A stretch of DNA of 50,489 bases from Acidocella sp. (GTDB lineage: Bacteria > Pseudomonadota > Alphaproteobacteria > Acetobacterales > Acetobacteraceae). Positions 5,199 through 16,307 of this stretch are shown piece by piece (the stretch's first letter is position 1; each line of letters begins with the position of its first letter). The stretch spans positions 1 through 50,489 of the forward strand of contig JAMFRU010000098.1 of assembly GCA_026224875.1 (NCBI GenBank), read 5' to 3'. The notes under the pieces are model-generated. The model made no database searches and was not told where the DNA came from. It saw nothing but the letters and a program-made list of their open reading frames with translations. The translations under genes were made by a program, and so were the position numbers.

Positions 5199-5903
5199 TT
5201 AAGCAGAGCGGCGCGTTCTTAGGAACAGGAAGACTCCGAGGGCGGCCGAGGCGGCGAACATGGCGCCGCCGAGGGCCAGCATGTGGGCGTGGTTGGGCTG
5301 GCTGCCGTGGCCGAAGAGGGCGAATATCAAGGTTTGCGGGATAAAGCCCAGTGCCGAGGCGGCGAGGAAGGGCAGAAGTTTTACCGAGGACAGGCCGGCC
5401 GCGAGGTTGAGGAGCAGGTTGTTGCCTACCGGCAGCAGCCGGAGCGTTAAAGTTGTCACGAAAGTATGATCCGAGAGGGTTTTGTCGAGCTTGGCAAAGC
5501 GGTCGCCAAAGCGGCGGCGGATGAAACCCTGGCCTACGGCACGGGCCCAGATGAAGTCGAGACTACAGGCCAGCACCTGGGCCACGAGGGCGATGATGCT
5601 GCCATAGACCGGGCCGAAGGCATAGCCCGCGGCGAAAGCCGGCACCTGGCGCGGCAGACCGATGGCGACCAGAAAGGTGGAGAGCAGGAGAAACAGACTC
5701 TGCCCGCGAATCCCGCCCTGCGATACCGCGTTGACCAGCTCGGTCTGCGCGGCACCGTGGCCGAGCAGCGGCAGAGCGGCTGCCACGGCGATCAACGCGC
5801 CGGCCATCAGCATCGGCTTCAGCGCCTTGGCGGTAATGGCGACGGCCTGGGCCTGAGGCTGAACCAAGCGAGGGGCCGGGGTGCGGGGCAGAATCTGGCT
5901 CAT
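5199..5903 (-). CDS. TVP38/TMEM64 (VTT domain) membrane protein
   Basis: 234 residues with about six hydrophobic segments. The central VTT/SNARE-associated region includes FLVAIGLPRQVPAFAAGYAFGPVYGSIIALVAQ and the later LRLLPVGNNLLLNLAAGLSSV. VTT proteins (DedA relatives) are thought to act in lipid or undecaprenyl-phosphate movement across membranes. The start overlaps the stop of the upstream glycosyltransferase by 4 nt (ATGA), indicating translational coupling and a shared task, plausibly handling of a polyprenyl- or lipid-linked sugar (inference). Confidence 0.82.
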   Translation of the reverse strand: MSQILPRTPAPRLVQPQAQAVAITAKALKPMLMAGALIAVAAALPLLGHGAAQTELVNAVSQGGIRGQSLFLLLSTFLVAIGLPRQVPAFAAGYAFGPVYGSIIALVAQVLACSLDFIWARAVGQGFIRRRFGDRFAKLDKTLSDHTFVTTLTLRLLPVGNNLLLNLAAGLSSVKLLPFLAASALGFIPQTLIFALFGHGSQPNHAHMLALGGAMFAASAALGVFLFLRTRRSA

Positions 5904-6673
5904 TCGGCACTCTCTATGTTGGGCACTTTCCAGCGCCGTTGCAGCCAGGCGACGCCAAACAGATCGACAATGCCGACCATGGCACGCTGCCAGTTATTGT
6001 AATGCGAGGCACCATGCGCGCGGGCGTGGTGGCGCACCGGTACCGAAACCACATGCCCGCCGGCGCGGATGAACAATGCCGGCAGAAAGCGGTGGATATG
6101 GTTGAAATGCGGCAGCTCCAGAAACGCCTCGCGCCGGAAGAGTTTGAGGCCGCAGCCGGTATCGGGTGTCGCGTCCTGCAGCATATAGGCGCGGATGCGG
6201 TTGGCATATCTGGAAGCCCAGCGCTTGGAGCCGGTGTCCTTACGATTAACGCGGTGGCCCGCGATCAGCACCGGACGCGGGCCGACGTTTTCGGCCTCGC
6301 GCGCCGCGGCCAGCATGGCGGGGATGTCGGCGGGGTCGTTCTGGCCGTCACCATCGAGCGTGGCGATGAACGCGCCGCGGGCCTTTTTGATGCCGGTGAT
6401 CACGGCACCGCTCTGGCCGCAGCTCTTGGTATGGCGAAAACGCCGGAAATTCGGGAGCTCCAACGCCAGCGCCGTTAAAATCGCGGGACTGTCGTCGGAG
6501 CTGCCATCGTCAACATAGACGATCTCGTGATCGACCCCCTCAAGGGCAACGCCGATGGCGGCCACCAGGGGACGAATATTGGGACTCTCATTATGGACCG
6601 GAACCACCACTGAAATCAGCGGCGCGGCTACATCGGTCTCAAGCAGGGTCTGGAATTTGGTCTCGATGTTCAT
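5900..6673 (-). CDS. Family 2 glycosyltransferase (dolichol-phosphate mannosyltransferase-like)
   Basis: 257 residues from the ATG at 6673, which I preferred over an upstream ATG at 6820 because the conserved domain begins about 18 residues later. The GT-A fold is shown by ISVVVPVHNES, the nucleotide-binding VDDGSSDDS, the metal-binding DGDGQNDPADI (DXD) and DTGCGLKLFRREAF. No C-terminal membrane segments follow, so it resembles DPM1-type enzymes that load a sugar onto a polyprenyl phosphate at the cytoplasmic face. It forms a two-gene operon with the VTT protein. Confidence 0.85.
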   Translation of the reverse strand: MNIETKFQTLLETDVAAPLISVVVPVHNESPNIRPLVAAIGVALEGVDHEIVYVDDGSSDDSPAILTALALELPNFRRFRHTKSCGQSGAVITGIKKARGAFIATLDGDGQNDPADIPAMLAAAREAENVGPRPVLIAGHRVNRKDTGSKRWASRYANRIRAYMLQDATPDTGCGLKLFRREAFLELPHFNHIHRFLPALFIRAGGHVVSVPVRHHARAHGASHYNNWQRAMVGIVDLFGVAWLQRRWKVPNIESAE

Positions 6674-7447: not shown

Positions 7448-7657
7448 ATGACGGAAAAGGCGAGGGCTCTGCCCCTCGCCCCCGCTGGGGCCTGAGGCCC
7501 CAGACCCCCGCTACTTAAGACATAAAAAAGAGGCCTGCCTCCTCGCTGTTTCAAACAGCTGGGAAGCAGGCCTCTTTTTTGTGTCTTCAACTAATGGGGT
7601 CTGGGCCTCAGGCCCAGTGGGGGTCGAGGGGGCAAAGCCCCTCGCCTTTTTCCGTCA
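7448..7657. repeat. Nested palindromic element, family A copy 3 (bidirectional terminator)
   Basis: It lies between convergent dksA and the Hyf-like operon. The arms TGACGGAAAAGGCGAG and CTCGCCTTTTTCCGTCA mirror each other except for one base, and the right arm contains the stop of the small-subunit gene. Both sides carry the GAGGG/CCCTC hairpin and the GGGGCC TGA GGCCCC type hairpin. The central 22-bp stem (7517-7538 with 7566-7587) has one T-G wobble. The stem core AAAAAAGAGGCCTGC and the loop GCTGTTTCAAACAGC are nearly those of copy 2. Confidence 0.9.
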
Positions 7658-8212
7658 CAAATCCCGTGCTCTCAGCCGCCGGGGCTTTTTCATGGGGTCG
7701 AGGGCGTTGGCTTCTATGAGGGTTAGGAGGGCTTGGATGATTTGGGTGGGGGTTGGGGGGCAGCCTGGGATGAACAGGTCTATGGGGGTGATGGTGTCGG
7801 CGCCGCCTTGGACGGCGGGGGAGGCTTTGAAGACGCCGCCGTCTATGGCGCAGTCGCCCAGGGCTACCACCAGCACGGGGTCGGGCATGGCGGCGCGGGC
7901 TTGGCGGGCGGCTTCTATCATGTTGCGGCCGGCGACGCCGGTGATGAGGAGGATGTCGGCGTGGCGGGGGCTGGGGGTGAAACTCAGGCCGTATTGGGTG
8001 AGGTCGTGGATCAGGTTTTGGGTGGCGCGGAGTTCGAGTTCGCAGCCGTTGCAGCTGCCGGCGGGGACGTGGCGGATGGCGAGCGCGCGGCCGAGTTTGG
8101 TGGTGCTGGCGGCGGCGAGGCGGGCGCGCAGGTCTTTTACCTGGGCGGGGTCGGCCTTGGCTGGCGCCGGGGCTTTGCTGAGGATGTGGTTGAGGGCGGT
8201 TTTCCACACCAT
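7655..8212 (-). CDS. hyfI: Hyf/Ech-like small subunit, NuoB/HyfI family
   Basis: 185 residues of the NuoB/[NiFe]-hydrogenase small-subunit family, which carries the 4Fe-4S cluster nearest the active-site subunit. All four ligands are visible: Cys54 and Cys57 (GSCNGCELE), Cys121 (ALGDCAIDGG) and Cys151 (IPGCPPTP). The cluster site is therefore intact even though the partner large subunit has lost its nickel site. It is the last gene of the operon, starting 1 nt after the large-subunit stop. The ~45-residue N-terminal extension is poorly conserved. Its own stop is embedded in palindromic element copy 3. Confidence 0.85.
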   Translation of the reverse strand: MVWKTALNHILSKAPAPAKADPAQVKDLRARLAAASTTKLGRALAIRHVPAGSCNGCELELRATQNLIHDLTQYGLSFTPSPRHADILLITGVAGRNMIEAARQARAAMPDPVLVVALGDCAIDGGVFKASPAVQGGADTITPIDLFIPGCPPTPTQIIQALLTLIEANALDPMKKPRRLRARDL

Positions 8213-8213
8213 T

Positions 8214-9581
8214 TTATAAATCCACGCCGGAGTATGAGGCGTTGATGGATTTATTGATCAGCGGGAAGTCGGCGAGGATGCCGGTTGTGGCGGCGTGTTC
8301 CAGCAATGGCCAGTGCAGGGCTGAGGCGTCGGCTATGAAGGCGGTGGTGATGGCGCCGCTTTCTATGTGCAGCCAGTGCCAGACGGGGCCGCGGAAACTT
8401 TCGGCCACACCCAGGCCCATGCCGCTGGTTTGCGGGAGGGCGTAGGCCAAAGCGTCGGTGGGGAGGGTTTGCAGCCAGTTGCGGATGGAGCGGATGCTTT
8501 CGGGGATTTCGTCCAGGCGGATGCGCAGCCGGGCGGCGACATCCCCTTCGTGTTGGATGGGCATGTGGATGGGGTGGTCCAGATAGGGCGGGTAGCCGGG
8601 TTGGGCGCGGGCATCGTGCGCCTGGCCGGAGGCGCGGCCGACGTAGCCGCCGGGGTGGTAGGCTTCGGCCAATGCCGGGGAGATGATGCCGGTGCCGATG
8701 ACGCGGTCCTGTAGGGAGGCGTAGTCCTCGAACACGCGGGTGAGGCTGGGGAGTTCGAATTCCAGGGCTGACAGGGCGTCGATTATGGCGGCAGCACCTT
8801 CGGGCATTATATCGCCCGCCACGCCACCAGGGACGACAATATCCATCATCAGACGGTGGCCAAAGGCAATGGCCGCAGCGGCGCAGATGGTTTCACGGGC
8901 GAGGGCGAAGCGGGCGTCGAGGAAGGCGAAACCGGCGTCGGCGGCGATAGCGCCGATATCCGATGTGTGGTTCGCGAGGCGTTCCAGCTCGGCCATGATG
9001 GCACGGAGATACACGGCGCGGGCGGGCGGGGTGGTGTCGAGCGCGGTTTCGGCCGCCTGGGCGAAGGCGAGGCTGTGCGCGACGGTGGCGTCCCCGGACA
9101 CGCGGGCGGCGTAGCGGGCGGCGAGGCGGGGGGATTTGCCGCGCATGAGGGCGAGCGTGCCTTTGTGGGCGTAGCCGAGACGGGCTTCGAGTTTCAAAAC
9201 CTCTTCGCCGCGGAGCGAGAAGCGGAAATGGCCGGGCTCGATGATGGCGGCGTGGATGGGGCCAACGGCGACTTGGTGCACGCCCTCCACGCCGGGGGAG
9301 GTGAATTCGGGCCAGGGGGCGGTGAAGTCGGGGTTGCGGAAATGCTCGATGGCGGGGCGGGTGTCGGTGGCACCCTGCGCTTTGTGGCCGTTGAGGTCGT
9401 GGGCGAGGCGCTGATACCAGTTGGCGCCAGGGTGGGGGAGAGCGGGGTAGGCACCCTCTACGAGTTCCACGGCGACCAGTTGTTGGGGCTGGTAGAGGGC
9501 GTAGGCGTATTGGGCATCGGTCCAGAGGGCGATGAATTTGCCCTGGTGGGCCGCCCAGTCGGCGGGGGAGAGCAGGATCAT
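8214..9581 (-). CDS. hyfG: Hyf/Ech-like large subunit, NuoCD/HyfG family, lacking Ni-Fe ligands
   Basis: 455 residues. Residues 1 to ~95 look like a shortened NuoC-like part, and from about 100 it follows the HyfG/NuoD core (VHQVAVGPIHAAIIEPGHFRFSLRGEEVLKLEARLGYAHKG). The first nickel motif RVCGICxxxH reads RVSGDATVAH (residues 160-169), so both cysteines are Ser162 and Ala165. The C-terminal DPCxxC motif reads NASYSG (447-452), so both cysteines are Ser449 and Gly452. With no ligand left it cannot bind a Ni-Fe centre. This matches the Ehr group described as linking group 4 hydrogenases to complex I. The start overlaps the upstream stop by 4 nt. Confidence 0.85.
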   Translation of the reverse strand: MILLSPADWAAHQGKFIALWTDAQYAYALYQPQQLVAVELVEGAYPALPHPGANWYQRLAHDLNGHKAQGATDTRPAIEHFRNPDFTAPWPEFTSPGVEGVHQVAVGPIHAAIIEPGHFRFSLRGEEVLKLEARLGYAHKGTLALMRGKSPRLAARYAARVSGDATVAHSLAFAQAAETALDTTPPARAVYLRAIMAELERLANHTSDIGAIAADAGFAFLDARFALARETICAAAAIAFGHRLMMDIVVPGGVAGDIMPEGAAAIIDALSALEFELPSLTRVFEDYASLQDRVIGTGIISPALAEAYHPGGYVGRASGQAHDARAQPGYPPYLDHPIHMPIQHEGDVAARLRIRLDEIPESIRSIRNWLQTLPTDALAYALPQTSGMGLGVAESFRGPVWHWLHIESGAITTAFIADASALHWPLLEHAATTGILADFPLINKSINASYSGVDL

Positions 9582-11026
9582 TGCAGCGCTCCGGACATGG
9601 TTGAGAGCAAATGCAGGATTGGCCCGGGCATGGCAAAAGCCAGCAGGACGACCAGGGCCAGATGCAGCGCGACCAGATGCATTTCGGGGGCGGCTTTTAC
9701 CGGTTTGGTGTGCGGTGGGGCGTCGCCGAAAATCAGCGGGCCGATGTTGCGCAGAATAGCGACGGCGCAGAGCAGCAGGCCAACGGCGAGTGGCGCGGAA
9801 ACCCAGGGGTTACGCTGCACGGTTTGGCTGATGATGATGAATTCCGAGGCGAACAGGCCCGACGGCGGCAGGCCGGTGAGGGCGAAAATTGCGCCGCCAA
9901 GCAGCCAGGCGGTGTATTTATTGGAGTGGATGAGCCCGCGCAGGTGTGAAAAACTGTAATTTCCGGGGGCGGTGGAGCCGCGCAGGGCCGCCGCGCGGAT
10001 GAGGGCTATGAACAAAGCGCTCTTAATAAGCGTTTGCAGCAGCATGTGCAGCAGCCCGCCGAAGATAGCCGCCGGGCCGCCGATGCCGAAAGCGAAGATG
10101 GCGATGCCGGAATGCTCGATGGACGAGAAGCCGAAGAAGCGCCGGGCGTCGCGCCGGCGGGAGAGGGAGAAGCCGACCAGGAGGAGCGAGGCCAGGCCAA
10201 GCACGATGAGGAACGGGCCGGGCGGCATGGCGGTGCCGCCGGAGGCGACGTTGGCCTGCATCAAATGGCGGAAGCGCAATATGGCGATGAGGGCTAGGTT
10301 CAACATCGGGCTGGAGAGGGCGGTGGTGAGCGGGGCTGGGCCTTCGGCGTAGGCGTCCGGCAGCCAGCCGTGCAGGGGGACGAGGGCGGCTTTGGTGCCG
10401 TAGCCGAACAGGATGAAAACGAAAGCCAGCGTCAGCAAGGCACCATCCATCCAGGCGGCGTGGGATGAGAGTTGGATAAAACTCATGGCGTTCAGGCCGG
10501 GGCCGAGGGCTGGCTGGGCGGCGAGGTAGACCAGCATGGTGCCGAACAAGGCCAGAGCGATGCCGACACCGCCGAGGATGAAGTATTTCCATGCCGCTTC
10601 CAGAGCCGAGGCGGTGCGCGGCAGGCTGACTGCCAAAGTTGCGGCGATGGTGGCGATTTCCACCGACGCCCAGAGCAGGCCGATGTTGTCGGCGTACAGG
10701 CCGAGCAAAGTGGCGCCGAGTACCACCTGGCAGAGCGCGTGGTAGAGGCGCCAGAGCGGCGGGGTGAGGCGGGGTTCGGCGCCGCGCACGTAGCCGATAT
10801 TGGCCAGCGATGTGGTGAAGGCGATGAAGCCGGTGAGGGCGCCGAAGAGCAGGCCCAAAGAATCGGCATGGATGAGGCCGCTGCCGGGGGCGGTGAAGGC
10901 GGCGATTGTGAGCAGGAAGACGACGAGGCTCAGCGCGGCGTTGGCGATGGCGCCGCGCACCGGGGTGCCGATGACGCCGAGAACGATGGCCGCCAAAAAA
11001 GGGAGGATGATGGGGAGCAGAATCAT
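9578..11026 (-). CDS. hyfF: Antiporter-like membrane subunit, HyfF/NuoN type
   Basis: 482 residues with about 13-14 hydrophobic segments, of the Mrp antiporter/NuoL-M-N family that moves protons or sodium ions. Conserved features are a membrane glutamate in WASVEIATI and the lysine-bearing GTKAALVPLHGWLPDAYAEGPAPLTTALSSPMLN stretch (TM7-8). It is shorter than E. coli HyfF (about 526). Start and stop overlap the neighbouring genes by 4 nt each. It is expected to be one of two ion-translocating modules of the complex. Confidence 0.85.
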   Translation of the reverse strand: MILLPIILPFLAAIVLGVIGTPVRGAIANAALSLVVFLLTIAAFTAPGSGLIHADSLGLLFGALTGFIAFTTSLANIGYVRGAEPRLTPPLWRLYHALCQVVLGATLLGLYADNIGLLWASVEIATIAATLAVSLPRTASALEAAWKYFILGGVGIALALFGTMLVYLAAQPALGPGLNAMSFIQLSSHAAWMDGALLTLAFVFILFGYGTKAALVPLHGWLPDAYAEGPAPLTTALSSPMLNLALIAILRFRHLMQANVASGGTAMPPGPFLIVLGLASLLLVGFSLSRRRDARRFFGFSSIEHSGIAIFAFGIGGPAAIFGGLLHMLLQTLIKSALFIALIRAAALRGSTAPGNYSFSHLRGLIHSNKYTAWLLGGAIFALTGLPPSGLFASEFIIISQTVQRNPWVSAPLAVGLLLCAVAILRNIGPLIFGDAPPHTKPVKAAPEMHLVALHLALVVLLAFAMPGPILHLLSTMSGALQ

Positions 11027-11682
11027 CGGCCGCGGCGCTCGATGTCTTCGATGCCGGTGATGTCCAGCGTGTCAAAATGCTCGCGGATGCGGAGGAGGAA
11101 GATGCCGACGACGAGGAAGGCGAGCAGGACCAGAAGAGCCACCGAGAATTCGGCGACGAAGGGCATGCCGGGCATGCCGATGGCAGCCAGGACCAGGCCG
11201 TTTTCGGTGGAGAGAAAGCCGATGATTTGCGCCAGAGCGCTCCGGCGGGCGGTCATCACCAGCAGGCCGAGCAGCACCACCGACAGGGCGATGGCGAGGT
11301 CTTCGCGGGTCAGCGACACGGCGCTCATGGTGCTGGGCAGGACCACCAGAACGGCGATGCCGATGAGGCCGGTGCCGAGCATCATGGAGAGGGCCATGGG
11401 CATGGTGCTTTCCACGGCGCGGGTGAGGTTGAAGCGCAAGACGATTTGCCGCAGCGCGATGGGCAATAGCACGCCCTTCAAGGCGAGGGTGATGATGCCG
11501 GTGAGGTAGAGGTTGACTTCGTGCTGGGCAAAGCCCTGCCAGACGGCGGCGGCCGAGAGGGTTAGCGCCTGCACCTGATAAAGAGTGATCATGGCGGCGA
11601 GGCGGCGCTGCGAGAGCAGCAAAAAGGCGCAGAGGAGGATAAGGCCGCCCATGAGATGGGCGAGGGAGAAGGTGAGGTTCAT
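11023..11682 (-). CDS. hyfE: HyfE-like membrane subunit (NuoK-related)
   Basis: 219 residues, almost the length of E. coli HyfE (216), with about seven hydrophobic segments. The N-terminal half is NuoK-like. I chose the ATG at 11682 (MNLTFSLAHLMGG). A longer frame to 11763 would overlap the upstream HyfC gene and add Ser/Pro-rich residues unlike the family. The protein sits in the membrane arm between the HyfC-like and antiporter-like subunits. The stop overlaps the hyfF start by 4 nt. Confidence 0.82.
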   Translation of the reverse strand: MNLTFSLAHLMGGLILLCAFLLLSQRRLAAMITLYQVQALTLSAAAVWQGFAQHEVNLYLTGIITLALKGVLLPIALRQIVLRFNLTRAVESTMPMALSMMLGTGLIGIAVLVVLPSTMSAVSLTREDLAIALSVVLLGLLVMTARRSALAQIIGFLSTENGLVLAAIGMPGMPFVAEFSVALLVLLAFLVVGIFLLRIREHFDTLDITGIEDIERRGR

Positions 11683-11695
11683 GAGCCGATCCTCT

Positions 11696-12655
11696 TCATG
11701 AGCCAATCCTGGCGGCGACGAAGAGGAAGACGCCGGCGAGAATGCCGAGGAGCATTGCGGCACCGAGGAATTCGGGCACGCGGAAGATGCGCATTTTGGC
11801 GGTGGAGATTTCGAACAATGGCAGCAGAGCGGCCATGATGCCGAGTTTGATGAGCCACAGCACCAGGCCCGCCGGCCAGGTGAGAATGCTATCGGCCTGC
11901 GCCATGGCGAAGGGGAAGAAGATGGTGCCGATGAGGTCCATCCAGAGCAGCAGGCGGAGCATGGCGGTGTATTGCAGCAGGAGCAGGAAACGGCCGGAAT
12001 ATTCCAGCGTCAGGGCCTCGTGGACCATGGCGAGTTCGAGATGGCCGGCGGGGTTGTCGGTGGGGATGCGGCCGGTTTCGGTGAGGGCTACGGCGAGGAG
12101 GGCTGCCAAAGCGAAGCCGAGGGAGACGGAGATGCCGATGTGGCCGGTGGCGAAGGCCACGGCGATGCCGTCTACCGTGATACTGTGCGCGAGGAGGACG
12201 AAGCTGAGGAGGACGACCAGCAGGGCGGCTTCGGCGAAAAGGGAGAAGAGGACTTCGCGCCCGGCGGCGGCACCGCCGAAGCCGAAGCCGGTTTCCAGCC
12301 CGCCAAGCATGGTGGCGGCGCGGGCCAGAGCGAGCAAGCCGATGAGGGTGATGAAATCGCTGGTGGGTGCGGTGAGCATGCCGGTGTAGAAGCCGGGCAC
12401 CAGCAAGGCGGCGGTGGCGGTGGCGAGGAAGGCGGCAACGGGCCAGATGGCGAAGAGTTCGGTTGCGGTTTCCGGCACCAGCGTGGTTTTACGAAGGTGT
12501 TTGTACAGCTCGTAATAGGGTTGCAGGAACGGCGGGCCGCGCCGGCCTAGCGCCCAGGCGCGGAATTTGTTCACTGCACCCATGAGTAATGGGGCCACGG
12601 CGAATACGGCGGCGGCGTGCAGCAAAGTGGCGATGAGGCGGAGGAGGAAGAGCAT
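11696..12655 (-). CDS. hyfC: HyfC-like membrane subunit (NuoH family)
   Basis: 319 residues with about eight hydrophobic segments, matching NuoH/HyfC. The cytoplasmic loop PPFLQPYYELYKHLRKTTLVPE after TM1 and the later loop with TGRIPTDNPAGHLELAMVHEALTLEYSG, rich in acidic residues, are family hallmarks. NuoH forms the link between the Fe-S arm and the proton-pumping subunits. The start codon overlaps the hyfB stop by 1 nt. The acidic loop is preserved, suggesting the coupling function survives even without the Ni-Fe centre. Confidence 0.88.
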   Translation of the reverse strand: MLFLLRLIATLLHAAAVFAVAPLLMGAVNKFRAWALGRRGPPFLQPYYELYKHLRKTTLVPETATELFAIWPVAAFLATATAALLVPGFYTGMLTAPTSDFITLIGLLALARAATMLGGLETGFGFGGAAAGREVLFSLFAEAALLVVLLSFVLLAHSITVDGIAVAFATGHIGISVSLGFALAALLAVALTETGRIPTDNPAGHLELAMVHEALTLEYSGRFLLLLQYTAMLRLLLWMDLIGTIFFPFAMAQADSILTWPAGLVLWLIKLGIMAALLPLFEISTAKMRIFRVPEFLGAAMLLGILAGVFLFVAARIGS

Positions 12656-14319
12656 CAGCCGCCCTCCGCCAAGCCGAGGGCGAGCAGAAACATGACCAGT
12701 GCCGCGAAGACCACGCCGAGGCGCTGGCGGATAGTGGCGCGGCGGATGCGCTCGGCCAGGCGCACACCGCGCAAATGCAGGCGTTGCAGCGGGGCGACGA
12801 GGTAGGTTTCGGCCGGGTCAGTGCCGTGTTTGCCGAGAATGCCCCTGGCGATGGCGCGGGTGACGGGCTCGGCAAAGCCGGTGGCGCTGGGCTGGGTGGT
12901 GGGGTCGCCGAAGGGCAGCCAGACCGGGGCGCGGCCGAAGCCGCCGTTCCAGGGGGCGGCCTCGCGCGTGCCGCGTACGCCCCAGCGGTGGAGGATGAAG
13001 CCTGTGGCGGTGGCGATGAGGAAGGCTAGCAGAATCAGGGGCAGAGGAGTGTAGCTCAGCAAATGGATCTCCGCTTGCGGCGCCAGCAGTGTGACCACCG
13101 GCATCATGGCCGCCAGCACCTGGCCTGGCACCAGCGCGACCGGGAGCATCAGCACGGCCAGCAGGCCCATACCGAATAAGGGGCCGCGCCTTGCGTCCTC
13201 GGCGGATGCGGCGTGCAGGCTGCGGGGACGGCCGAGAAAGCCGATGCCGATGAGGCGTACGGCTGCACCCAAAGCCAGCGCCGCGCCCAGTCCCAAAGCG
13301 GCCAAAGCAAAAGTAAAGCCGATGCGGGCTAAAATCCCGCCGGTGGCCGCGGCGGCTATTACCGCATGCAGGAGTAAAAACTCCGGCGCGAAACCGGGGC
13401 CGAGCGGGAGGGCTGCCATGCCTGCCGCACCCAGCAGCATGAGGGCGCCCAGGCGGGGCTGGCCGCGCATGAGCCCGCCCAGCCAGTTGAGCGAGGTGGT
13501 GCCGGTGGCGTGTTTCACCTCGCCCGCACCGAGAAACAGCAGCGGTTTGAACAGCCCGTGCGCCACGGCGCAGAGTAGGGCGGCCTGAAGTGCCACGGCG
13601 GTGAGAGCTGGGTCGCCCATGGCTTTGGCGCGCAGGGCGATGCCGAGCCCGACCGCGATGAGCCCCACATGCTCGACCGTGGAACAGGCGAGCATGGTCT
13701 TCATCTCGGTTTCCAGCATGGCCCGCAGCGCGCCGATGACGACCGAGGCGATGCCGGCGACGATGAGCACCACGCCCCACCAGGGCTGCGCGGCCCCTGT
13801 GAGGACGATAAAGGCATAGCGGATGAGCACGTAGAGGGCGATTTTGACCATGCCGCCGGACATAAGCGCCGACACCCCCGCTGGTGGCGCTGGATGCGCT
13901 TTGGGCAGCCAGGAGTGCAGCGGGGCGAGCCCGGCTTTAGCACCCGTGCCTAGAGCGATGAGCACGAACGCGATGGAACTAGCAGGGAGGAATACCGCCG
14001 GGATGAGGCAGGCGGACGAAAAAATGGCGATGGTGATGTAGAGGGTCGCGGGCCTCTGGTCGCCGCGCAGCACCAGCAGCCAGGAGGCCGCACTCATCAG
14101 CTCGAAGCCGAAGATGAGGGTGAAGGCATCACCTGCCGCCAGGGCCAGCACCATGCCGAATACGAAAACCCAGAAGGTGACGGAGAAGCGCATGCCGGCC
14201 ACGGCACTGGCCAGCACTTGCGGGGCCAGGATGCACAGGAACAGCAGCGACAGGGCATCGAGATGCAAATGCATCCCCTGCCCCGGCAGCCCCACCATCA
14301 GCGTCACATTATCAGTCAC
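12655..14319 (-). CDS. hyfB: Antiporter-like membrane subunit, HyfB/NuoL-M type (short N-terminus)
   Basis: 554 residues against about 672 in E. coli HyfB. The first ~70 residues (two membrane helices) are absent, and the sequence opens at the LRMDSLS-like position (MHLHLDALSLLFL). The GTG at 14319 is the first possible start, since an in-frame TAG lies four codons upstream. Key antiporter residues are present: Glu in FGFELMSAASW and Lys in GAKAGLAPLHSWLPKAHPAPPAGVSALMSGGMVK. It is the first gene of the Hyf-like operon. Its upstream neighbour on the same strand ends 85 bp away, so a promoter may lie in between or it may be co-transcribed. Confidence 0.85.
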   Translation of the reverse strand: MTDNVTLMVGLPGQGMHLHLDALSLLFLCILAPQVLASAVAGMRFSVTFWVFVFGMVLALAAGDAFTLIFGFELMSAASWLLVLRGDQRPATLYITIAIFSSACLIPAVFLPASSIAFVLIALGTGAKAGLAPLHSWLPKAHPAPPAGVSALMSGGMVKIALYVLIRYAFIVLTGAAQPWWGVVLIVAGIASVVIGALRAMLETEMKTMLACSTVEHVGLIAVGLGIALRAKAMGDPALTAVALQAALLCAVAHGLFKPLLFLGAGEVKHATGTTSLNWLGGLMRGQPRLGALMLLGAAGMAALPLGPGFAPEFLLLHAVIAAAATGGILARIGFTFALAALGLGAALALGAAVRLIGIGFLGRPRSLHAASAEDARRGPLFGMGLLAVLMLPVALVPGQVLAAMMPVVTLLAPQAEIHLLSYTPLPLILLAFLIATATGFILHRWGVRGTREAAPWNGGFGRAPVWLPFGDPTTQPSATGFAEPVTRAIARGILGKHGTDPAETYLVAPLQRLHLRGVRLAERIRRATIRQRLGVVFAALVMFLLALGLAEGG

Positions 14320-14404: not shown

Positions 14405-15421
14405 TTACGTCAGCGACGGCCGCAATGGACCAAGCTGCGAGATCAACCTTATCCCAGGCGGAGCAGCTATTACATCTGGAATGCGGTTCACCATGCAGGA
14501 TGCTGAGGTGTGTACCCCATCGGCGCGGTCGATCCGGATTTTGGATGACGGCCTTCCATCAACGGCCCACGTCATGTTTTCGGACTCGCCTTCCGCCAGG
14601 AGACGCAGTTCAATGTGCGCGCTTGCCGTAGGCCCTTCTACGGTTTCGACAGACGCGATGATCCGAAGACCGAGCGAGGTGCCGGGCTCCAAAAACCTAT
14701 TGAGGATACGGCACCACACCGGTTGATCGGAAAGTACCGGCTCGCGCAGCTCGGTCACGTTTTTGATCGTAAAGCCAAGCGCATGCATCACGTGTGCCGG
14801 TATGCCTTTATACAGCTCACCTAATTGGCCGGGCACCTTGGTTACTTTTTCCAAAAACTCGGCTTGCGTCATGTCAACGCCATAGGCGCGCATCATGCGT
14901 TCGTTCGCCAGCTCTGCGTTTGTCAAGCACGGCCCCGCAATCAGCATTCCCGCCCAGATGCGGGAGAAGTCCCAAATGCCAGTCCCGGTGAATGTAACAG
15001 CGTTCCGCTTGGCCAAGGCATCAATCTTTTCGGCTAAGTCGGGATCGGCGCCTTGCGGAAAATAGGACTCTGAGCCGTGGCAGATGACATTGATGCCGGC
15101 TCCCAAGAGGCGTTGATAAGCCGCAAAGTTGAGGCTCAGCCTCTCGGTTTGCACAACCAACGCGATGTCCGCATCCATGGTCGCGTAGTCGGCGGTTTCA
15201 CAGTCCTGTACGACGACACCCAAGTCTTCGTTCAGCCCGGCGAGCCGCCCTAGATCCTCGCCGATCTTGGGACCTGCCCGGTTCACCGCCGCAACGATTG
15301 GCCAGCCATTTTTTACGAGAATGCGCACAGCCTCCATACCGTAGTACCCGGCCCCGTAGATCATGACCCGGGGCCTGAGACGTGCTGGGTCTTTTGCGGC
15401 GGTGCCGTGGACGACGCTCAT
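14405..15421 (-). CDS. NAD(P)-binding dehydrogenase, DapB/2,4-diaminopentanoate dehydrogenase-like
   Basis: 338 residues. The N-terminal Rossmann fold RVMIYGAGYYGMEAVRILVKNGW carries GxGxxG-like spacing, followed by DADIALVVQTERLS and GINVICHGSESYFP, as in dihydrodipicolinate reductase N-terminal-domain proteins. The C-terminal half resembles proteins annotated as 2,4-diaminopentanoate dehydrogenase or NAD(P)H-dependent amine dehydrogenase. The true substrate is unknown. The ATG at 15421 is used. It precedes the Hyf-like operon on the same strand but shows no overlap with it, so a functional link is only a possibility. Confidence 0.7.
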   Translation of the reverse strand: MSVVHGTAAKDPARLRPRVMIYGAGYYGMEAVRILVKNGWPIVAAVNRAGPKIGEDLGRLAGLNEDLGVVVQDCETADYATMDADIALVVQTERLSLNFAAYQRLLGAGINVICHGSESYFPQGADPDLAEKIDALAKRNAVTFTGTGIWDFSRIWAGMLIAGPCLTNAELANERMMRAYGVDMTQAEFLEKVTKVPGQLGELYKGIPAHVMHALGFTIKNVTELREPVLSDQPVWCRILNRFLEPGTSLGLRIIASVETVEGPTASAHIELRLLAEGESENMTWAVDGRPSSKIRIDRADGVHTSASCMVNRIPDVIAAPPGIRLISQLGPLRPSLT

Positions 15422-15547: not shown

Positions 15548-15925
15548 CTACCCCGCGGCGAGGTCCGTCTCGTACTCCACCACGGTCGCGATGCGAAAGG
15601 AGGTGCGGTCGAACAGGTTCTTCTCATCCTCGACGATGAAATCCGGCATGACCGCGCTGGTGAGGTAGCCGAGCAGATTGTTGAACGAGGTCTCGTCCTT
15701 GCACCACAGCTCGGTGATGACGTCGAATGCCATCTCGGTGTTGGGGCCGGTTTCGGGGTGCGGCTGGGGGTTTATGAAGCGGCGGATGTAGCGGGCGAGA
15801 TTGGTGCTGGATTTGGCGCATAAAGGCGCGTGGTTGTTCTCGTAATAGGCGCGGAAATCGGCGACGGACATGCCGGGCTTGCGTTTCATGAACAGCAGGA
15901 TTTTGTGGATTTTTATGTCTGACAT
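15548..15925 (-). CDS. EthD-domain protein
   Basis: 125 residues from the ATG at 15925 (MSDIKIHKILLFMKRKPGMSVADF). An ATG at 16003 would add 26 residues unlike the family. The LLFMKRKPGMSVADFRAYYENNHAPL segment is the EthD ferredoxin-like (dimeric alpha-beta barrel) signature. EthD proteins accompany P450 or other degradative enzymes, sometimes as decarboxylase-like or accessory proteins; the activity here is unknown. It appears to be a single gene, 126 bp upstream of the DapB-like gene on the same strand. Confidence 0.78.
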   Translation of the reverse strand: MSDIKIHKILLFMKRKPGMSVADFRAYYENNHAPLCAKSSTNLARYIRRFINPQPHPETGPNTEMAFDVITELWCKDETSFNNLLGYLTSAVMPDFIVEDEKNLFDRTSFRIATVVEYETDLAAG

Positions 15926-16307
15926 TTTTTGCTCCCGTGTGCGGTTCGGGGTTGCTTTACCGTGAGACTGGCCAGCGGGCCACTGACCTGATGGCTTGGG
16001 CATGTAGGGCGGGACGGAAACGGACTCAGGTGACTGAACAGCGAAACATGCGGGGACATGCTGCTTCGTGCACGGGAGCGCTTATATGCCCGCGTGCGCG
16101 AGCATGACGGGGGTGGTGGGAGGCCGGCGGTGTGGAGCGGGACGTTTTGCCTGAGCTTGGGCTCACACAATCGGCTCTGAAAAAGGGAAGGCCATTCCAG
16201 CACGCGCGTTTTGCGAGCACCGGAATGGCCTTCCCTTTTTCAGAGCCGGGTGGGATCCAAGGGCCTTAGGCCCTTGGCGGGTCCAGGGCAGAGCCCTGGC
16301 CTTTTCC
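15926..16307. other. Intergenic region with a REP-like hairpin and family A copy 5
   Basis: 382 bp between the EthD gene start and the mdh stop. It holds a REP-like hairpin at 16086-16112 (CCCGC..GCGCGAGCATGACGGG pattern, the same type as at 26259) and the palindromic element at 16173-16310. The EthD promoter must lie near 15930-16080, but I cannot identify it. Confidence 0.5.

Follow-up and report, generated by a model that had tools for sequence, protein, structure and literature searches.

We analysed a 50,489-nucleotide stretch of DNA from Acidocella sp. (contig JAMFRU010000098.1 of assembly GCA_026224875.1; hereafter "the window", meaning this whole stretch), which carries a putative membrane-bound oxidoreductase operon, hyqBCEFGI, belonging to the superfamily that unites complex I and group 4 [NiFe] hydrogenases. 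Its six genes are closely packed on the minus strand, running from position 14319 to 7655, and all of their frames are open.

12655-14319, minus strand: hyqB, antiporter-like membrane subunit (HyfB/HycC-like), 554 amino acids (aa), N terminus shortened; PF00361, top NCBIfam model hydrogenase 4 subunit B
11696-12655, minus strand: hyqC, membrane anchor (HyfC/HycD-like), 319 aa; PF00146, matches to E. coli HyfC and HycD
11023-11682, minus strand: hyqE, HyfE-like membrane subunit, ~219 aa from an internal Met, inferred start; NF008556, below cut-off
9578-11026, minus strand: hyqF, antiporter-like subunit (HyfF-like), 482 aa; top NCBIfam model hydrogenase 4 subunit F, 426 bits (below the cut-off of 533)
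8214-9581, minus strand: hyqG, large subunit without Ni-Fe ligands, 455 aa; PF00346 and PF00374, nearest solved match 7z0s_E
9075-9104, minus strand: RVSGDATVAH, HyqG residues 160-169, in the place of the first hydrogenase CxxC
8226-8243, minus strand: NASYSG, HyqG residues 447-452, in the place of the second hydrogenase CxxC; the protein stops three residues further on
7655-8212, minus strand: hyqI, small subunit with one [4Fe-4S] site (C54, C57, C121, C151), 185 aa; PF01058

Pfam antiporter, NADHdh, 49 kDa/NiFe and 20 kDa families cover five of the six proteins, while hyqE is named by NCBIfam alone, as a hydrogenase 4 membrane subunit whose score falls under the model cut-off. The hyqE open frame reaches 11763, and relatives in most loci align from about residue 24-30 of this long open reading frame. 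An original prediction, made from the sequence alone, had described positions 8214-14319 as a Hyf-like complex devoid of Ni-Fe ligands; hyqI lies just beyond that range. Its claim that HyfA, HyfD and HyfH are absent from the window held: at E ≤ 0.01 neither HyfA nor HyfH matched anything in the window, and a HyfD query matched only hyqB and hyqF themselves.

Alignment to E. coli HyfG and HycE places the four Ni-Fe cysteines at S162, A165, S449 and G452 of HyqG, so that the large subunit lacks both CxxC pairs of a group 4 [NiFe] hydrogenase. The earlier statement that RVSGDATVAH and NASYSG replace the CxxC pairs holds, and in a set of 125 relatives (117 distinct) the four positions are free of cysteine in 123 cases, the other two (L068 and L183) having one. 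Sequencing error or a frameshift is an unlikely cause, because the six frames are open and those 123 relatives are likewise cysteine-free at the ligand positions. A HyqG without both CxxC motifs was already published in 2012 for Hyq (PMC3357923), and ligand loss was therefore already known for the family. In public annotation, two of the relatives (L035, 8752-10317; L038, 8785-10302) are called nickel-dependent hydrogenase large subunit despite the absent nickel ligands, and elsewhere HyqG is annotated as the hydrogenase expression protein HypE.

Hyq was named as an "endo-hydrogenase" of Azorhizobium caulinodans (PMC2650096, PMC3357923), whose hyqRBCEFGI operon is described without hyfA and hyfD (PMC2650096). 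Compared with that published description, the window has the same six structural subunits in the same hyqB-C-E-F-G-I order, again with no HyfA or HyfD, a HyqG without CxxC pairs and a HyqI with four Fe-S cysteines (CxxC, C, C). On these grounds we assign the window operon to Hyq, as its predicted Acidocella-clade form. The Hyq family does without HyfA and HyfD, which makes the lack of input subunits a family trait and not a genome-specific loss. Unlike Azorhizobium Hyq, the window's clade lacks three cysteines of HyqG and has a shortened HyqB, the window genome has no HypA or HypD and no nif match above cut-off, and the upstream neighbour of hyqB is a DAP_DH-like gene and not a regulator.

The three cysteines, C258, C491 and C497, were described as completely conserved in HyqG (PMC3357923). 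Their equivalents in the window are A213, I442 and A448, the first placed by alignment. Across the 125 rows, all three are present in 58, one or two in 26 and none in 41 (among 117 distinct rows, all in 56 and none in 36). The window's HyqG falls in a clade of 24 rows with a Shimodaira-Hasegawa-like approximate likelihood ratio (SH-aLRT) support of 100, and 0/24 carry any of the three. On this quick tree, which has long branches and SH-aLRT support but no bootstrap, there are at least six changes between none and some cysteines, and deep Hyq-like branches also lack all three, so that loss and gain are both plausible histories. The three cysteines thus appear not to define Hyq, with membership set instead by orthology and gene order. 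Their absence across the window's clade is a new point, not found in the published literature by a search that was weak on subscription journals. The second clade-specific trait is the shortened HyqB, with 554 aa where four annotated copies from alphaproteobacteria have 665-686 aa; open frames across the clade are similarly short. The window complex is a cysteine-poorer, shortened Hyq variant.

The Fe-S site of the small subunit is retained throughout, with C54, C57, C121 and C151 present in 90/90 HyqI rows filtered at 75% length and 40% identity, as the original prediction had read from the window's copy. In three species (G120, G190 and G258) hyqI lies away from hyqG, adjoining trpS elsewhere in the genome. 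Loss of hyqI in these genomes was considered and rejected once the gene was found beside trpS; the trpS-adjoining copies (L101, 5831-6367; L102, 5235-5777; L103, 5882-6424) keep all four cysteines. Retention of an unlinked hyqI therefore speaks for a working redox part. The earlier claim that the HyfB/F-like subunits keep their key charged residues also proved sound, for six residues in HyqF (E123, K212, E304, H327, K335 and E395) and five in HyqB (E73, K128, K159, K258 and E313). Of the six HyqF residues, E123 and K212 are each kept in 98 of 101 filtered rows, E395 in 97, K335 in 96, E304 in 89 and H327 in 84. Within 17 clade rows, all six HyqF residues are kept in 16/17, HyqB E73 and K128 in 16/17 and K159 in 15/17, the exceptions being L050 in both subunits and L120 for HyqB K159 only. 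The HyqG and HyqI of L050 are 64% and 72% identical to those of the window.

By both sequence and fold, the nearest solved structure to HyqG is HycE of formate hydrogenlyase (FHL; 7z0s_E), and its AlphaFold model has a mean predicted local distance difference test (pLDDT) score of 89.4. Proton-relay and canopy residues have been given for the superfamily (PMC9474812). HyqG keeps the relay as E115 (HycE E193), H205 (H284), R316 (R395), E358 (E437) and R397 (R478), the last position being Lys in E. coli NuoCD. Conservation is nearly complete, at 110/116 rows for E115 and 114/116 for R397, and at 115/115, 115/115 and 114/115 relatives for H205, R316 and E358. At 29 further positions, conservation among 116 HyqG reaches at least 93% and the residue is unlike those of HycE, HyfG and NuoCD; D164, T166, D208, H242, D247, D418 and G452 are among these, and 22 additional conserved positions are common to the two hydrogenases HycE and HyfG, not NuoCD. 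The HyqG C terminus coincides with the end of NuoD, with no hydrogenase-type extension. Judged by its residues, the pocket is neither a Ni-Fe site nor a canonical quinone site.

Evidence for a place between complex I and the hydrogenases, as first proposed, is mixed at the level of sequence scores. On the one side, the top NCBIfam models are NuoD for HyqG (145 bits) and NuoB for HyqI (108 bits), both under cut-off and from listed matches that held no HyfG or HyfI model; on the other, all six window proteins score higher against E. coli Hyf/Hyc than against NuoB, CD, H, J, K and L (a comparison set without NuoM and NuoN), and HyqC had no match to NuoH at E ≤ 0.01. With E. coli Hyf/Hyc (7z0s) the window shares six homologous subunits and the proton relay, but it lacks the Ni-Fe ligands, the canopy Asp, HyfA/HyfD/HyfH and the C-terminal extension after the second motif, and no maturation genes were found. 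Complex I has a core fold in common with HyqG, but in the window operon a CxxC takes the place of the consecutive cysteines of complex I (PMC9474812), the quinone-site His/Tyr positions are altered and there is no NADH module. Ehr complexes are described as relatives of group 4 that lack the ligands, with a presumed role in linking redox chemistry to ion movement (PMC6349859). By that broad description the window operon qualifies as Ehr, being group-4-like with antiporter-like subunits and no Ni-Fe ligands, and to this extent the original placement stands; as an identity it is too broad, the nearest named system being Hyq. The Ehr examples given there (PMC6349859), for which a partnership with formate dehydrogenase and NuoE/F-like genes is proposed, differ from the window operon, which has none linked.

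The window genome has 145 contigs and a completeness of 95.1%, and absences from it are strong, not absolute. Over the whole genome, PF00374 matched HyqG alone and gave no second Ni-Fe large subunit, HypA and HypD had no match (HypB, C, E and F were not searched) and nifH gave one weak match under the cut-off. The Hyp maturation expected of a group 4 [NiFe] hydrogenase is thus missing as far as HypA and HypD report on it; the genome search proposed with the original prediction, for other large subunits and hyp genes, returned none for PF00374, HypA and HypD, and its claim that no maturation gene is present in the window agrees with this result. A formate dehydrogenase partner was likewise rejected, with no Fdh-alpha match linked to hyq. 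The top one (C113, below cut-off; L199, 3915-8075) is a 1386-residue protein, encoded downstream of nirB, in which a nitrate-reductase-like molybdopterin domain is joined to a CysJ-like flavoprotein reductase. Another (C128; L200, 2218-4566) is an FdhF/YdeP-family oxidoreductase with an FdhD gene (5641-6507) ~1 kb downstream, and further matches on C117 and on C4, the complex I contig, are also unlinked. A search for HyfH-type ferredoxins gave seven Fer4_7 matches, all unlinked to hyq.

We then surveyed 299 genomes from the window's order, every one bearing the same family label, of which 136 had a HyqG-like match at E ≤ 1e-80, a cut-off of our own. Outside the 136 there were five HyqG-like matches of 1e-59 to 1e-70, and matches weaker still, down to 1e-20 (two g7 genomes, for instance, have one at 1e-56), were taken as NuoD-like unchecked; most of the 136 were counted by HyqG match, without inspection of cysteines or synteny. 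Among these Hyq genomes HypD was above cut-off in 23, nifH in 5 and neither in 111. A set of 38 named Hyq genomes, chosen from 80 loci, had HypD in 18 and nifH in 11. Rhodopseudomonas palustris 2.1.18 (L172), whose HyqG keeps the three cysteines, carries nifH and gave no HypD match; the completeness of its genome is not given. On contig C109 of genome G280, nifH, hypD and hyqG lie at 163912, 172310 and 196287, within ~34 kb, and a second hyqG copy of that genome, with three cysteines, is on a separate contig (L055). Ten loci (L059, L063-L066, L069, L070, L073, L074 and L079) carry a divergent HyqG-like gene with no HyqE or HyqF match nearby at E ≤ 1e-5, and could belong to a distinct Hyq-like type within that family.

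The operon is widespread and apparently maintained. Hyq operons are present in many alphaproteobacteria, and in the genus of the window, which includes Acidocella aromatica and A. aquatica, HyqG was found in 16/16 sampled genomes, the window's included (partial at a contig end in G229), and HyqI at no less than 63% identity in 16/16. The ratio of nonsynonymous to synonymous substitution rates (dN/dS) was 0.02-0.28 for all six hyq genes in nine close pairs (seven for hyqI), which share species and in a few cases have dS > 1. These values point to purifying selection on the hyq genes in the sampled pairs.

Upstream of hyqB, a diaminopentanoate-dehydrogenase-like gene (14405-15421) and an EthD-domain gene (15548-16003), both on the minus strand, separate it from a malate/lactate dehydrogenase gene. 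Several other loci of the clade have that last gene directly upstream of hyqB, and an EthD relative occurs in L109 only. No relatives were found on the viral contigs searched.

Taken together, we give roughly even weight for and against the reading that the Hyq complex of the window is a Ni-free member of the complex I/group 4 superfamily working as an ion-pumping, one-cluster oxidoreductase. The HyqI cluster is the sole recognisable electron cofactor. A soluble low-potential carrier, ferredoxin-like, would dock directly on HyqI, whose single [4Fe-4S] cluster would hand electrons on to an acceptor in the pocket formed by HyqG, HyqI and HyqC; ubiquinone is the likeliest candidate. Protonation in that pocket, via E115-R397-H205-E358-R316, would engage a proton path through HyqC, HyqE, HyqF and HyqB, and the direction may reverse under high proton-motive force. 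The acceptor is the weakest step of this proposal, because the canonical quinone ligands are missing. Going further, and only tentatively, HyqG may add to the Ni-Fe and canonical quinone pockets of the complex I superfamily a third type, combining the hydrogenase relay with Hyq-only residues (D164/T166 at the old metal site, with D208, H242, D247 and D418 as candidates) around a novel substrate or cofactor, which a single Fe-S cluster would feed or drain and which would power proton pumping. On this view the Acidocella form is a cysteine-free minimal version.

Several observations weigh against a Ni-free, one-cluster pump. The quinone-binding His and Tyr of the complex I 49 kDa subunit, present in E. 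coli NuoCD, correspond to I114 and G163 of HyqG, leaving no canonical quinone site. The canopy Asp, said to appear strictly conserved (PMC9474812), is N447. The HyqB N terminus is ~60 residues shorter than that of HyfB, and L050, from a metagenome-assembled genome (G288), has a HyqB without E73, K128 and K159 and a HyqF without 5/6 key residues. No electron-donor gene is linked to the operon; this part of the original prediction, which named no donor since the usual input subunits are missing, stands, but the missing subunits are shared by the Hyq family. HypD is commoner in Hyq genomes (23/136 compared with 10/163 in the rest of the family; odds ratio 3.1, Fisher P 0.005, uncorrected for kinship), which counts against complete independence of Hyq from Hyp. 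Finally, genetics in A. caulinodans credits Hyq with both H2 uptake and H2 production (PMC2650096, PMC3357923, PMC2930871).

These genetic data underlie the rival view that Hyq is a genuine hydrogenase whose site is novel and not Ni-Fe, a site that the Acidocella form either keeps or lacks along with the three cysteines. H2 evolution is strongly altered in Δhyq strains, also in a nifK background (PMC3357923), nodules release H2 only when both hup and hyq are deleted (PMC2930871), and HyqG has residues conserved specifically in the family, D164 and T166 of the first motif and elsewhere D208, H242, D247 and D418, with all three cysteines kept in 58/125 rows. We regard it as unlikely nonetheless: the complex is still kept in the 41/125 rows without the cysteines, including all 24 of the window's clade, nifH as the proposed H2 source is absent from 131/136 Hyq genomes of the family, and the accessible parts of the Hyq papers contain no report of a purified enzyme. 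Somewhat less probable is operation in reverse, in which proton-motive force would drive quinol electrons through HyqI to a low-potential carrier serving, for example, nitrogenase or biosynthesis. The single-cluster path would suit such a role, hyq is under NifA in Azorhizobium (PMC2650096) and complex I is stated to be reversible (PMC3357923), but the same 131/136 genomes without nifH would require another use and no linked ferredoxin gene was seen.

Acidocella is an acidophile genus, and its inclusion in the clade, together with the loss of both metal and canonical quinone ligands, could suit a non-redox ion antiporter useful in acidic habitats, with HyqG and HyqI as structural caps only; the Fe-S cysteines in every filtered HyqI row, the retained unlinked hyqI and the conserved relay residues make this improbable. 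Least credible, and in our view very improbable, is a decaying relic nearing loss. The short HyqB, the charge losses of L050 in HyqB and HyqF and the one HyqB loss of L120 would be in line with decay, but six open frames, the low dN/dS values and the presence of HyqG in every sampled genome of the genus are not.

The published Hyq work that we found, in a literature search thin on subscription journals, is that of a single laboratory, and the H2 activity it reports is put in question by a natural version without Ni ligands or the three cysteines. With this cysteine-free version in a genome where no maturation genes were found and no nitrogenase is above cut-off, the choice between a hydrogenase and a one-cluster proton pump becomes testable. 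Either answer would bear on complex I, by showing which parts of the pocket coupling needs.

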